Below are positions 3,746 through 46,932 of a DNA stretch of 55,064 bases, piece by piece. The position numbers and the translations under genes were made by a program. Origin of the DNA: Oceanospirillum multiglobuliferum (lineage in GTDB: Bacteria > Pseudomonadota > Gammaproteobacteria > Pseudomonadales > Halomonadaceae); the NCBI RefSeq assembly GCF_900167095.1, contig NZ_FUXG01000020.1:1-55064 (forward strand), given 5' to 3'. How positions within the stretch are numbered: position 1 is the first letter of the stretch; each line of letters starts with the position of its first letter. The notes below the pieces were generated by a model. That model ran no database searches. It was not told where the DNA came from and was given only the letters and a program-made list of their open reading frames with translations.

Positions 3746-4144
3746 GTCTAAATAGTAAAATCTTTTCAGCAGTGAATTCAAAGTGAGCTTGGATGTTACC
3801 GCTTATTGCACTGCGGTGGGAGATGTAGAAGAGGATAAAAGCAAGAAAGAGACTAAAATAGTCGGAAATAAATTCATCCAGCGTGCATTTTGGGATGTTT
3901 TTTTTCAGAAACCCCCGACAAACTTTATATTATATTGGTCTTGTGGTATAAAGCCGCGCGCTTCTACGCAAATGTTAATCAGAAGGCTTTGCCACTGATG
4001 GCATTGTGTTTGAGCCATATCAATTAAATCCAAAACGACACACATATACCGACACGTAGCTCTGGGTGCCTAAGACAAACTTGGTTTGTGATTAGGTTGG
4101 GTTATGGGGTGTATGGAGGTTTAACCCTAATTTTAGGAGTCAAA
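3746..4144 (+). promoter_or_regulatory. intergenic region between map and rpsB with a probable rpsB promoter
   Basis: This 399-base gap has no credible gene. A candidate sigma-70 promoter is TTTATA (3924-3929), a 17-base spacer, and TATAAA (3947-3952), followed by a very GC-rich stretch (GCCGCGCGC). A GC-rich discriminator is typical of stringently controlled ribosomal promoters. That would give an mRNA leader of about 185 bases before rpsB. The divergent map promoter must also lie here but I cannot place it. The promoter call is by eye. Confidence 0.45.
4075..4131 (+). promoter_or_regulatory. structured rpsB leader, candidate S2 autoregulatory element
   Basis: Two hairpins precede the rpsB Shine-Dalgarno. 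One is ACAAAC-TTG-GTTTGT (4075-4089). The other pairs ATTA plus GGGTTA (4091-4104) with TAACCC plus TAAT (4122-4131), with a four-base bulge. The AGGAG ribosome-binding site at 4135-4139 follows at once. In Enterobacteria and other gammaproteobacteria the rpsB leader is bound by free S2 to repress rpsB-tsf; the position and two-stem layout fit, but sequence identity to the known element was not tested. Confidence 0.5.
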
Positions 4145-34837: not shown

Positions 34838-35833
34838 ATGACTACTTTAGAGAAAGACTTCATCACCGATGAAATAGATTCAGAACTAGAACTTGACCTA
34901 GTAGATGATTGCGACGATATAGATGACGAGCAAATGTCTGCCTCAGAAGCCGAAGAGGCTTTCGAACGTGCTCTCGAACGCGAAGACAAAACAGAGAAAA
35001 GCCTTGATGCCACTCAGCTTTATTTGAATGAGATCGGGTTTTCCCCTTTGTTATCACCTGAAGAAGAGGTGTTCTACGGTCGTCTGGCTCGTAAGGGTGA
35101 TGCCGCTGGCCGCCGCCGTATGATCGAAAGCAATCTACGTTTGGTGGTTAAAATTGCCCGCCGCTATTTGAATCGAGGACTAACCCTACTAGATCTTATT
35201 GAAGAAGGTAATCTTGGTCTTATTCGTGCCGTTGAGAAATTCGATCCAGAGCGTGGTTTTCGCTTCTCAACCTACGCTACTTGGTGGATTCGTCAAACCA
35301 TAGAACGCGCACTAATGAACCAAACTCGCACCATTCGCTTACCCATTCATGTCGTAAAAGAACTGAATGTCTACTTGCGGGCAGCGAGAGAGCTGACTCA
35401 AAAGCTAGACCATGAAGCAACCCCAGAAGAGATCGCAGAAGCACTAGATCGCCCCGTTGAAACTGTGAAAAAAATGCTGGGTTTGAATGAACGCGTCACT
35501 TCTGTTGATTATCCAGCAGGTAGCGATGTTGATCGCCCTCTGATAGAGACCATCGCTGACTCAGAAGATATGGACCCCGCCCAGACACTGCAACGTAATG
35601 ATTTCAGTGAACATATTGATATGTGGTTAGGTGAGCTCAGCGAAAAACAATCAGAAGTAGTAGTACGTCGTTTTGGTCTGCATGGTTATGAACCATCAAC
35701 GCTAGAGGAAGTAGGCGATGAAATAGGTCTAACTCGCGAGCGTGTGCGCCAAATCCAAGTAGAAGCACTACGTCGTTTACGCCGAATTATGGAAAAGCAA
35801 GGTCTATCCATTGACTCAGTATTTGATAACTGA
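34838..35833 (+). CDS. rpoS: RNA polymerase sigma factor RpoS (sigma-38)
   Basis: General stress and stationary-phase sigma factor. The 331-residue product has an acidic N-terminus, region 1.2 ([17 protein letters not shown]), region 2 ([19 protein letters not shown], then [17 protein letters not shown] and [16 protein letters not shown]), region 3 and region 4 with the helix-turn-helix [20 protein letters not shown]. The lack of a long RpoD-type non-conserved insert, the RpoS-like length and the surE-pcm linkage support RpoS rather than RpoD. It ends in [10 protein letters not shown]. nlpD is absent upstream; a terminator and a CsrB-like RNA follow. Confidence 0.96.
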
Positions 35834-35863
35834 AGCAATACACTTAGCTTCCAACCTCTAAAA

Positions 35864-35890
35864 CCACGCTAATCTGAGCGTGGTTTTTTT
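35864..35890 (+). terminator. rho-independent terminator of rpoS
   Basis: CCACGCT (35864-35870) and AGCGTGG (35877-35883) form a perfect stem with loop AATCTG, followed by seven T. Confidence 0.9.
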
Positions 35891-35949: not shown

Positions 35950-35967
35950 TGTAAGAGATTGCCTACA
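35950..35967 (+). promoter_or_regulatory. GacA-box-like upstream activating sequence
   Basis: TGTAAG-AGATTG-CCTACA matches the Pseudomonas GacA upstream activating sequence TGTAAG-N6-CTTACA with one mismatch. Its centre is about 180 bases before the predicted start of the small RNA, the distance reported for rsmY/rsmZ-type genes. Confidence 0.65.
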
Positions 35968-36125: not shown

Positions 36126-36131
36126 TAGAAT
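36126..36131 (+). promoter_or_regulatory. predicted -10 element of the CsrB-like RNA
   Basis: TAGAAT lies in an AT-rich stretch, 24 bases before the first GGA motif of the RNA and about 180 bases from the GacA-like box. No good -35 is present, as expected for an activator-dependent promoter. The transcript would start near 36138. Confidence 0.45.
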
Positions 36132-36137
36132 TTGTTA

Positions 36138-36492
36138 AAGTGACTGGGCGCTAAGGAAAACAGTGCAGCCGGACAAGATGTTCGGTAATGGAGATAACAC
36201 GGGATTATGGATCTAGAGTGACAGACAGGGATGCTAGGAAGCAATGTCATAGGAGTGTCACAGGGAAAGCTTAGGATAAGCTAGCAGTCAGGATAGATTG
36301 CAATGGAAAGGAGTTACGACGGATCGTAATTCAGGTGGGCTAGGATGCTTACTAAGGATCAATGGATAGGAACGGCCGACAAGGAACGCAGGAGCAACAG
36401 TCAACAGGATGCCGAAGGAGTCAACTCAGGATGAGTTGTGATCAAGGAATAGGTCACAAAGGGATTATAGGGCGGCTAGGCCGCCCTTCTCA
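36138..36492 (+). ncRNA. csrB: CsrB/RsmZ-type CsrA-sequestering small RNA
   Basis: A roughly 355-base RNA with no open reading frame and 25 GGA triplets between 36155 and 36464. Several sit in the loop of short perfect hairpins: GCTTA-GGA-TAAGC (36269-36281), TTACGA-CGGA-TCGTAA (36314-36329) and CAACTCA-GGA-TGAGTTG (36422-36438). Copies of the CsrB-type core AGGATG occur at 36342, 36406 and 36428. This GGA-in-loop design is the hallmark of RNAs that bind many CsrA/RsmA dimers and so relieve translational repression. It ends at a GC-rich terminator. The place directly after rpoS is that of rsmZ in Pseudomonas, while the length and GGA number resemble enteric CsrB. A GacA-like box lies about 180 bases upstream. 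The exact 5' end is inferred. Confidence 0.88.
36470..36490 (+). terminator. terminator of the CsrB-like RNA
   Basis: GGGCGGC (36470-36476), loop TAG, GCCGCCC (36480-36486), then TTCTCATTTCTC. A strong stem with a mixed T-rich tail. Confidence 0.8.
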
Positions 36493-36565: not shown

Positions 36566-37393
36566 CTAGTACTTCACTCCAAGTGCCTTTGCCTTGTTAG
36601 CAATGTTATCAGTCAACAAGTTCTCTGCTATTTGTGCCTTTGAGTAATAGCGTTCCAATATCTCATAATAAGTGCCATTCGCTAGAATAGTGTCCAAACC
36701 TTGATTAAATTTTTCGATTAGCCCTGTTTGGTTTTTGTGAAAAACCAAACCAATGGGTACCGTCAAGATTGGTTTTTTCACCGTGGTAAACTTATTTACA
36801 CTGTCAGGAAAGAGCTTGCCAATCAAAGCCCAACCAGCAGTTTCACCACCAATAGCAAAGTCTATACGATCCGCATTAAGCATTCTAAAGTTGAGTTCTA
36901 GCTTGCTGACCCACTGAATATTTAACCCCGCATCAGTTACCACTGGCGTAGTTGAACTGCCACGAACATTGCCAATATTATAAATCTGAAGCTCACTCAA
37001 GGCTTGATAAGCAATGTCTTTCTTGAAGGTGCTTTTTTTATAAAACAGCATAAAGTGAATATTAAACAGATTCACCACCTCAACAAGATCATCAGCTTTA
37101 TCTTTAATAAACCAATTAATGGAACCAAGATTAGCAGGATGCCTTTCAGTGACTACGGACTCGACACTGCGAATCATTGGAATATAGTCAAATTCTATTG
37201 TCACACCTGCAGCCTTAAATGCTGCCTCGGTCAGATCACTAGCTACACCATAGCCTTTGCCCGGTATTTTTTCAGACTGAAAAAGAGGCGGGTACTCTAT
37301 GGTAGAAAGGCGAATGGCGCTATTGGCAAAAGTTGTCGCACTGTAGCTCAACAACAGCAGCAAAACTAAGTGCGCTTTTTTTATTAAGGACAT
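36566..37393 (-). CDS. periplasmic solute-binding protein, family 3 (amino-acid type)
   Basis: A 275-residue secreted protein: signal peptide MSLIKKAHLVLLLLLSYS and on to about residue 23 (TTFA), then a SBP_bac_3-type fold (LSTIEYPPLF, GYGVASDLTEAAFKAAG, and later LGLVFHKN-like PIGLVFHKNQTGLIEKFNQGLDTILANGTY). Such proteins bind polar amino acids or similar small ligands. No ABC permease or ATPase gene is near, so it may not serve transport. It lies 90 bases downstream of a histidine kinase on the same strand, with AGGG five bases before its ATG. Ligand unknown. Confidence 0.8.
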   Translation of the reverse strand: MSLIKKAHLVLLLLLSYSATTFANSAIRLSTIEYPPLFQSEKIPGKGYGVASDLTEAAFKAAGVTIEFDYIPMIRSVESVVTERHPANLGSINWFIKDKADDLVEVVNLFNIHFMLFYKKSTFKKDIAYQALSELQIYNIGNVRGSSTTPVVTDAGLNIQWVSKLELNFRMLNADRIDFAIGGETAGWALIGKLFPDSVNKFTTVKKPILTVPIGLVFHKNQTGLIEKFNQGLDTILANGTYYEILERYYSKAQIAENLLTDNIANKAKALGVKY

Positions 37394-46832: not shown

Positions 46833-46912
46833 CATCCTGTTGAGGGGCGCTGCAACGGAGTTTTCTCCGCTACGCTCAACAAGATGCCAACTTCATTTGC
46901 AAGGGCGCCCAT
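46833..46912 (+). promoter_or_regulatory. S-adenosylhomocysteine (SAH) riboswitch
   Basis: All parts of the known SAH riboswitch are present. P1 is CATC-x-TGTTGAG (46833-46844) with CTCAACA-x-GATG (46875-46886). P2 is CGGAG-TTTT-CTCCG (46856-46869). The conserved core GCGCTGCAACGG follows P1. The pseudoknot GGGCGC (46845-46850) pairs with GCGCCC (46905-46910). It ends 20 bases before the ahcY start and covers the long in-frame extension upstream of it, showing that extension is leader, not protein. Known elements switch on ahcY when SAH accumulates. Confidence 0.92.
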
Positions 46913-46932
46913 TCTTCCGAATGGAGAATCTG

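Follow-up and report, generated by a model that had tools for sequence, protein, structure and literature searches.

The stretch of DNA analyzed here (the window) comprises 55,064 nucleotides of the Oceanospirillum multiglobuliferum genome and carries rpoS on its plus strand. Between the end of rpoS at 35833 and the next gene lies a gap of 732 bases without any open reading frame of at least 50 amino acids, in agreement with an earlier sequence-only reading that had described a gene-free region of about 730 bases. This reading had also reported 25 GGA triplets in about 310 bases, and the count proved exact for the plus strand of 36155-36464 (310 bases), where TCC does not occur (n = 0). The richest 310-base span elsewhere in the window holds 8 GGA on the plus strand and 7 on the minus strand, and 2000 mononucleotide shuffles of 36141-36491 gave a mean of 11.8 GGA and a maximum of 20. 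The RNA predicted from this interval (Table 1) measures 341 nt including the terminator stem, its 5' end being placed to within several bases. Fourteen of its sites match ANGGAN, which PMC7652899 gives as the RsmE hexaloop, and neighboring GGA starts are spaced by a median of 12.5 nt. Three GGA-loop hairpins named in the sequence-only reading are exact in the sequence: GCTTA-GGA-TAAGC at 36269-36281, TTACGA-CGGA-TCGTAA at 36314-36329 and CAACTCA-GGA-TGAGTTG at 36422-36438. The GC-rich terminator that it placed at the end of the RNA is likewise present, albeit with an imperfect T tail.

Table 1. Position and support of the features in and around the predicted sponge RNA of the window
Feature	Position	Strand	Support
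rpoS (syntenic neighbor)	34838-35833	+	NF004207, 497 bits vs cut-off 394
GacA-box-like upstream activating sequence TGTAAG-AGATTG-CCTACA	35950-35967	.	1 mismatch to TGTAAGN6CTTACA
Extended -10 element TTTGTTAAAGT	36131-36141	+	TTTGnTAA(A/T)(G/A)T in 7/7 genus copies
Csr/Rsm sponge RNA (predicted)	36147-36491	+	25 GGA, fold, conserved control region
5' hairpin, loop AAGGAAAAC	36148-36166	+	MFE
Sponge module A, 7 GGA	36216-36311	+	Model R2, 61.5 bits, E 1.2e-14
Hairpin H1 of module A	36268-36282	+	MFE, 6 bp, loop GGA; covariation
Hairpin H2 of module A	36284-36301	+	MFE, 6 bp, loop AGGATA
Inter-module GGA-loop hairpin	36311-36332	+	MFE, 9 bp, loop CGGA
Inter-module GGA-loop hairpin	36334-36353	+	MFE, 7 bp, loop TAGGAT
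Sponge module B, 7 GGA	36370-36467	+	Model R2, 40.9 bits, E 3.1e-9
Hairpin H1 of module B	36424-36436	+	MFE, GGA loop; covariation; perfect stem possible 36422-36438
Hairpin H2 of module B	36437-36458	+	MFE, 7 bp, loop AAGGAATA; covariation
Intrinsic terminator stem-loop	36469-36487	+	8 bp, 7 G-C
Next gene downstream of the RNA interval	36566-37393	-	ORF listing

Seven copies of the RNA, sharing the box, the -10 element, the GGA hairpins and the terminator, were extracted by means of the terminator motif from six Oceanospirillum genomes, one of which (G002) is assigned to the same genus as the window by kinship. This comparison among relatives, of the kind that the sequence-only reading had proposed, revealed a control region, GGA hairpins and a terminator that are kept in every genus copy. 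With this conservation, chance GGA richness was rejected. As far as sequence alone can tell, all seven copies have a -10 element and terminator of their own, and the interval in the window is non-coding; the -10 pattern was derived from those same copies, and the terminator motif AGGGCGGC..GGCCGCCCT, present in 7/7, is the one that had served to locate them. The T tail in the window, TCTCATTTCT, is weaker than that of most relatives. By itself the GacA box is within chance, 2.97 sites with up to two mismatches being expected in the window; at one mismatch the whole genome has 9 sites versus 4 for the reversed control. Its weight derives from its fixed position, since a box with at most one mismatch lies 156-168 nt upstream of the -10 element in all seven copies. 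Together with the presence of a GacA gene, the kept box position leads us to predict control by GacA/UvrY.

The copies fall into short forms of 178-208 nt with 10-16 GGA and long forms of 341-373 nt with 25-27 GGA, so that a single locus shows an approximately two-fold range in size and GGA number inside one genus. Besides the window RNA (341 nt, 25 GGA), the long forms are those of G002 (372 nt, 26 GGA) and O. sediminis (373 nt, 27 GGA). Short forms are found in O. linum (202 nt, 16 GGA), O. maris (178 nt, 10 GGA) and O. sanctuarii, which has two tandem genes (204 nt with 16 GGA and 208 nt with 14 GGA). A pattern of 25 fixed bases from the 3' end of the RNA matches four contigs in the genome collection, all from Oceanospirillum (O. 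maris, O. linum, O. sediminis and O. sanctuarii). In a DNA similarity search with the RNA, pieces of just 27-97 bases were recovered from the five other genomes of the genus and nothing was recovered outside it. In a tree of RpoS proteins the three short-form species cluster and the long forms branch outside this cluster; the long form may hence be ancestral in Oceanospirillum.

The MFE of the RNA from the interval is lower than expected (z -4.45; 0/100 shuffles equally low), and the trimmed 341-nt RNA gave z -5.4. The MFE structure of the latter leaves 15 of the 25 GGA unpaired and places 9 entirely inside hairpin loops, as compared with means of 5.0 (maximum 11) and 1.8 (maximum 7), respectively, in 100 dinucleotide shuffles. 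When the closing pair is counted, nine of the twelve MFE hairpins present GGA in the loop. Two stems, H1 and H2, were chosen by eye for analysis of covariation. Compensatory changes on both sides affect three pairs in H1 and two in H2, as opposed to at most one in slid controls, and the number of doubly changed pairs was matched by 48/500 (H1) and 16/500 (H2) shuffles. These counts omit G002 in both stems (an extra base in H1; a loop one base longer and a mismatch in H2); the H1 count has separate entries for both window modules, A and B, and a single entry for the identical stems of O. sanctuarii, and for H2 module A of the window was left out. RNAalifold on the module alignment returned a covariation term of +0.31, which amounts to no support, with 3/31 pairs changed on both sides. 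All in all, covariation in the H1 and H2 stems provides modest support for a conserved RNA structure. A lack of covariation together with loss of the GGA loops in close relatives, named beforehand as counter-evidence, is not what the alignment shows.

The window RNA was then compared with covariance models from which the window itself had been left out. Model R1 describes the 3' module of the relatives including its terminator; since this inclusion affects R1, a second model, R2, was built from six modules of relatives without the terminator. R1 matched the window over 36370-36487 (66.1 bits, E 4.5e-17), its second match covering 36216-36331 (53.8 bits, E 1.2e-13); the third, at 14.8 bits, is the terminator read backwards. 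R2 recovered modules A and B (Table 1) and nothing beyond them in the 55 kb. GGA richness can be ruled out as the cause of these matches, because R2 reached at best 16.2 bits on 13 sources outside the genus, all of which have Csr/Rsm-type stretches, and because the two window segments stand out from triplet-preserving shuffles with z 12.5 and 5.9. Each short form contains a single module, and of a second copy G002 and O. sediminis show no more than a trace (15.7 bits, E 0.019, and 8.5 bits, E 1.5, respectively). Direct alignment of the window RNA's two halves gave a likeness that was not significant, 97 of 1000 triplet-preserving shuffles reaching the score. The case for a duplication is therefore made by the separate match of each half to the module of the relatives, and a duplication, if it is the real origin, would have to be old. 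Neither the 5' part (36147-36215) nor the middle (36303-36369) significantly resembles the modules of the relatives or the 5' parts of the short forms. Judged by these model matches, a sponge module is present twice within one predicted transcript, and the CsrB-like size of the window RNA appears to go with the doubled module, near relatives being about half as long. This arrangement differs from rsmX-1 and rsmX-2 of P. brassicacearum, described in PMC7911923 as a tandem amplification, which are distinct genes, each of about 110 nt.

Searches with Rfam models, proposed in the sequence-only reading as a check, yielded weak matches and no family assignment, be it at gathering or at permissive thresholds. 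On the window RNA all scores stayed below gathering, with 21.3 bits for CsrC (gathering 61), 19.9 for PrrB_RsmZ (44) and 19.2 for RsmY (57), and CsrB (RF00018, gathering 71) was not among the matches listed, which do not include two further, lower-scoring ones from that clan. No match was obtained in the O. multiglobuliferum genome for CsrB with strict filters or for RsmZ (RF00166) with stricter filters. Among 20 loci of relatives, none reached gathering with RF00018, RF00084, RF00166 or RF00195 and most have GGA-rich RNA-like stretches, so the Csr/Rsm family looks under-annotated in the order outside the one family with recognized rsmZ. Elsewhere in the window, an SAH riboswitch (46836-46917) and a t44 RNA (4021-4125) exceed their Rfam thresholds, both being ordinary. 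A stretch of 462 nt with 33 GGA in another genome of the collection (G043; L044:1257-1718) scored 55 bits with CsrB (threshold 71) and is located upstream of a tRNA gene, away from rpoS and fdxA.

Position and promoter tie the window RNA to rsmZ. Of the 293 genomes representing the order, 12 contain RsmZ genes above the Rfam threshold; these genomes come from one family, and 12 of the 13 places above threshold were looked at. At every one of these 12 loci a GacA box precedes the RNA match by 160-172 nt, and the RNAs measure 118-137 nt with 6-9 GGA. Within the 3 kb fetched around them, rpoS was found at eight, fdxA at nine, both at six and neither at one (L114). A table in PMC3349714 places rsmZ of P. 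aeruginosa between rpoS and fdxA, and a figure legend in PMC4353343 names fdxA, mutS, nlpD and rpoS for the rsmZ regions of Pseudomonas. In Oceanospirillum, the RNA follows rpoS in the window and in G002. O. linum, O. maris, O. sediminis and O. sanctuarii have it next to fdxA and convergent with that gene, on a contig separate from that of rpoS. An RNA with the same -10 element is located between rpoS and fdxA in G052 and G057, genomes from two further families of the order: that of G052 (L092) is 506 nt long with 27 GGA and a GacA box with two mismatches, and that of G057 is 120 nt long with 7 GGA and no GacA box within two mismatches. The window thus keeps the rpoS side of the rsmZ position alone, with a fitting box distance; neither of the two fdxA-like genes of its genome (L071, L085) has such an RNA beside it.

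The fdxA side was surveyed at 48 of the 60 fdxA places found. Nineteen stretches combined at least 8 GGA per 150 nt with a one-mismatch box; four belong to Oceanospirillum and 15 are spread over ten further genera of its family. The remaining 29 failed, among them three (L084, L092 and L096) that are GGA-rich and have no one-mismatch box. A Csr-related RNA adjoining a ferredoxin gene, CsrR2, was detected by dRNA-seq in Alcanivorax dieselolei; according to PMC9788540, it has six unpaired GGA and its other named neighbor is an Hpt-domain gene. The ferredoxin neighbor is thus shared with the RNAs described here, whereas the second neighbor is not rpoS.

The components with which such an RNA would act are encoded in the same genome. 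CsrA (63 aa) scored 121 bits against a cut-off of 73 and has L4 and R44, the residues named in a figure legend of PMC7652899. GacA is encoded upstream of uvrC (294 bits, cut-off 280), and a GacS-like kinase of 980 aa carries a sCache_4 domain (49 bits vs 22). A second sponge was sought in this genome with R1 and one-mismatch GacA boxes. The next separate R1 place has 16.5 bits, an E of 0.2 and one GGA, and none of the places inspected, the window's own box excepted, has more than 7 GGA per 150 bases or counts as GGA-rich, although a sponge of differing sequence could escape this search. The window RNA is likely to be the main CsrA antagonist of this Oceanospirillum. Of the weak R1 matches in relatives, those in G011 and G019 look like the terminator alone (2 and 1 GGA in the matched region), that in G020 is a short stretch with 6 GGA, and that in G026 is a genuine GGA-rich pair after rpoS. 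On contig 41 of G000, a 93-aa ORF on the minus strand (L042:1480-1761) matches the CsrA domain in two pieces in a neighborhood that, by eye, resembles a Mu-type prophage, and is possibly a mobile-element CsrA.

Taking these findings together, the best reading of the window RNA is that of a Csr/Rsm sponge which is an rsmZ orthologue by locus and not a member of RF00166 as modelled, the orthology following from the shared rpoS/fdxA synteny and GacA box distance. We consider it very probable that the gene encodes a small RNA orthologous to rsmZ by position and promoter and serves as a GacA-driven CsrA sponge. The GGA hairpins, the layout of box, promoter and terminator, some covariation, the synteny, the two module matches and the circuit genes can be read from the DNA directly. 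By homology, we infer transcription, GacA control, CsrA binding, dimer number and targets as follows. Phosphorylated GacA of the GacS/GacA pair would bind the box at 35950-35967 and activate transcription from the weak extended -10 promoter, yielding an RNA of about 341-345 nt that ends at 36487-36491; its GGA-loop hairpins, in two module copies and linkers, would hold several CsrA dimers, and CsrA would thereby be drawn off mRNA leaders, so that CsrA-repressed genes are switched on. The architecture of a CsrA-sequestering RNA and the rsmZ position directly after rpoS, both recognized in the sequence-only reading, are supported by the seven copies, the modest covariation, the synteny in genus and order, and the presence of CsrA, GacA and GacS-like kinase genes. 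Its suggestion of an intermediate or unnamed family member can be sharpened to an rsmZ orthologue by position and promoter, whose CsrB-like size goes with the module being present twice.

CsrB and CsrC of enterobacteria (RF00018, RF00084) act as sponges through many GGA-loop hairpins and occupy another locus than rpoS/fdxA. The window RNA resembles them in size class and GGA number, and CsrC is its best permissive Rfam match, so a CsrB-type sponge could have been placed after rpoS independently. We regard this as improbable: the box distance is the same as at rsmZ, the rpoS/fdxA neighbors recur both within Oceanospirillum and in further families of the order, close relatives have at this locus short forms that come near rsmZ in size, and the genome has no CsrB match with strict filters. 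With RsmZ of Pseudomonas (RF00166) the RNA shares the rpoS-fdxA locus, the rpoS strand, a box about 160-170 nt upstream, GGA-loop hairpins and a G+C-rich terminator, whereas it is longer and richer in GGA than the RNAs at the 12 rsmZ loci, and its module is matched twice. A 3' UTR extension of the rpoS mRNA, whose GGA hairpins would recruit CsrA to the rpoS message, is suggested by the common strand, the distance of about 300 bases and a pattern scan that gave no terminator between rpoS and the RNA. This is very hard to reconcile with the RNA's own conserved promoter element and box and with its place beside fdxA, on another contig than rpoS, in four of the six genus members, and was rejected; moreover, a hairpin AAACCACGCT/AGCGTGGTTT followed by a T run, unlisted in the scan, is visible by eye at about 35860-35890. 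Equally remote is a functionless GGA-rich stretch or unrecognized coding sequence, to which the missing Rfam match and a 156-codon stop-free frame in the RNA region of one relative (G033, where coding remains conceivable for this reason) could point, since stems and control region are conserved in seven copies and stop-free runs in the window RNA never exceed 45 codons in six frames, on which ground coding was rejected.

Genome-wide predictions of CsrA-regulating RNAs have been made before. In a machine-learning prediction paper (PMC5568370), a word search of the main text did not find Oceanospirillum, Halomonas, Chromohalobacter or Marinobacter named. In the open-licence literature we found no paper on a Csr/Rsm sponge RNA of Oceanospirillum, PMC8262984 dealing with a different topic to judge from its title, or on a CsrA small RNA with GGA motifs in Halomonas, and for CsrB/RsmZ in Oceanospirillales just the Alcanivorax report (PMC9788540). 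The window RNA represents a predicted CsrA antagonist that is invisible to Rfam calls and to protein-gene annotation. Size and GGA number, often used for telling RsmZ from CsrB, vary here at one locus.

Across the order, the RNA of this locus ranges from about 118 to 726 nt, approximately six-fold. There is in our view an even chance that rsmZ and the CsrB-size sponges are two ends of one elastic locus, in which the rpoS-rsmZ-fdxA RNA has been repeatedly lengthened and shortened, from about 118 to more than 700 nt in one order, by duplication and loss of a CsrA-binding module of about 100 nt, either fused as in the window or as tandem genes as in O. sanctuarii, G026 and G057. If so, module number would tune the capacity of the sponge. 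Whether a longer sponge sequesters more CsrA is testable because the natural length variants share a promoter type. Tandem pairs of sponge-like RNAs that form separate units were seen beside fdxA in O. sanctuarii (L108) and after rpoS in G026 (L141), and by eye G057 (L101) has tandem, unfused sponge-like RNAs between rpoS and fdxA. Two very long GGA-rich stretches on the minus strand beside fdxA, both of which have a GacA box and a terminator and gave no Rfam hit, are possibly the largest sponges of this locus: with the RNA start placed 165 nt after the box, that of G033 (L091) would measure about 726 nt with 40 GGA and that of G010 (L077) about 710 nt with 34 GGA.
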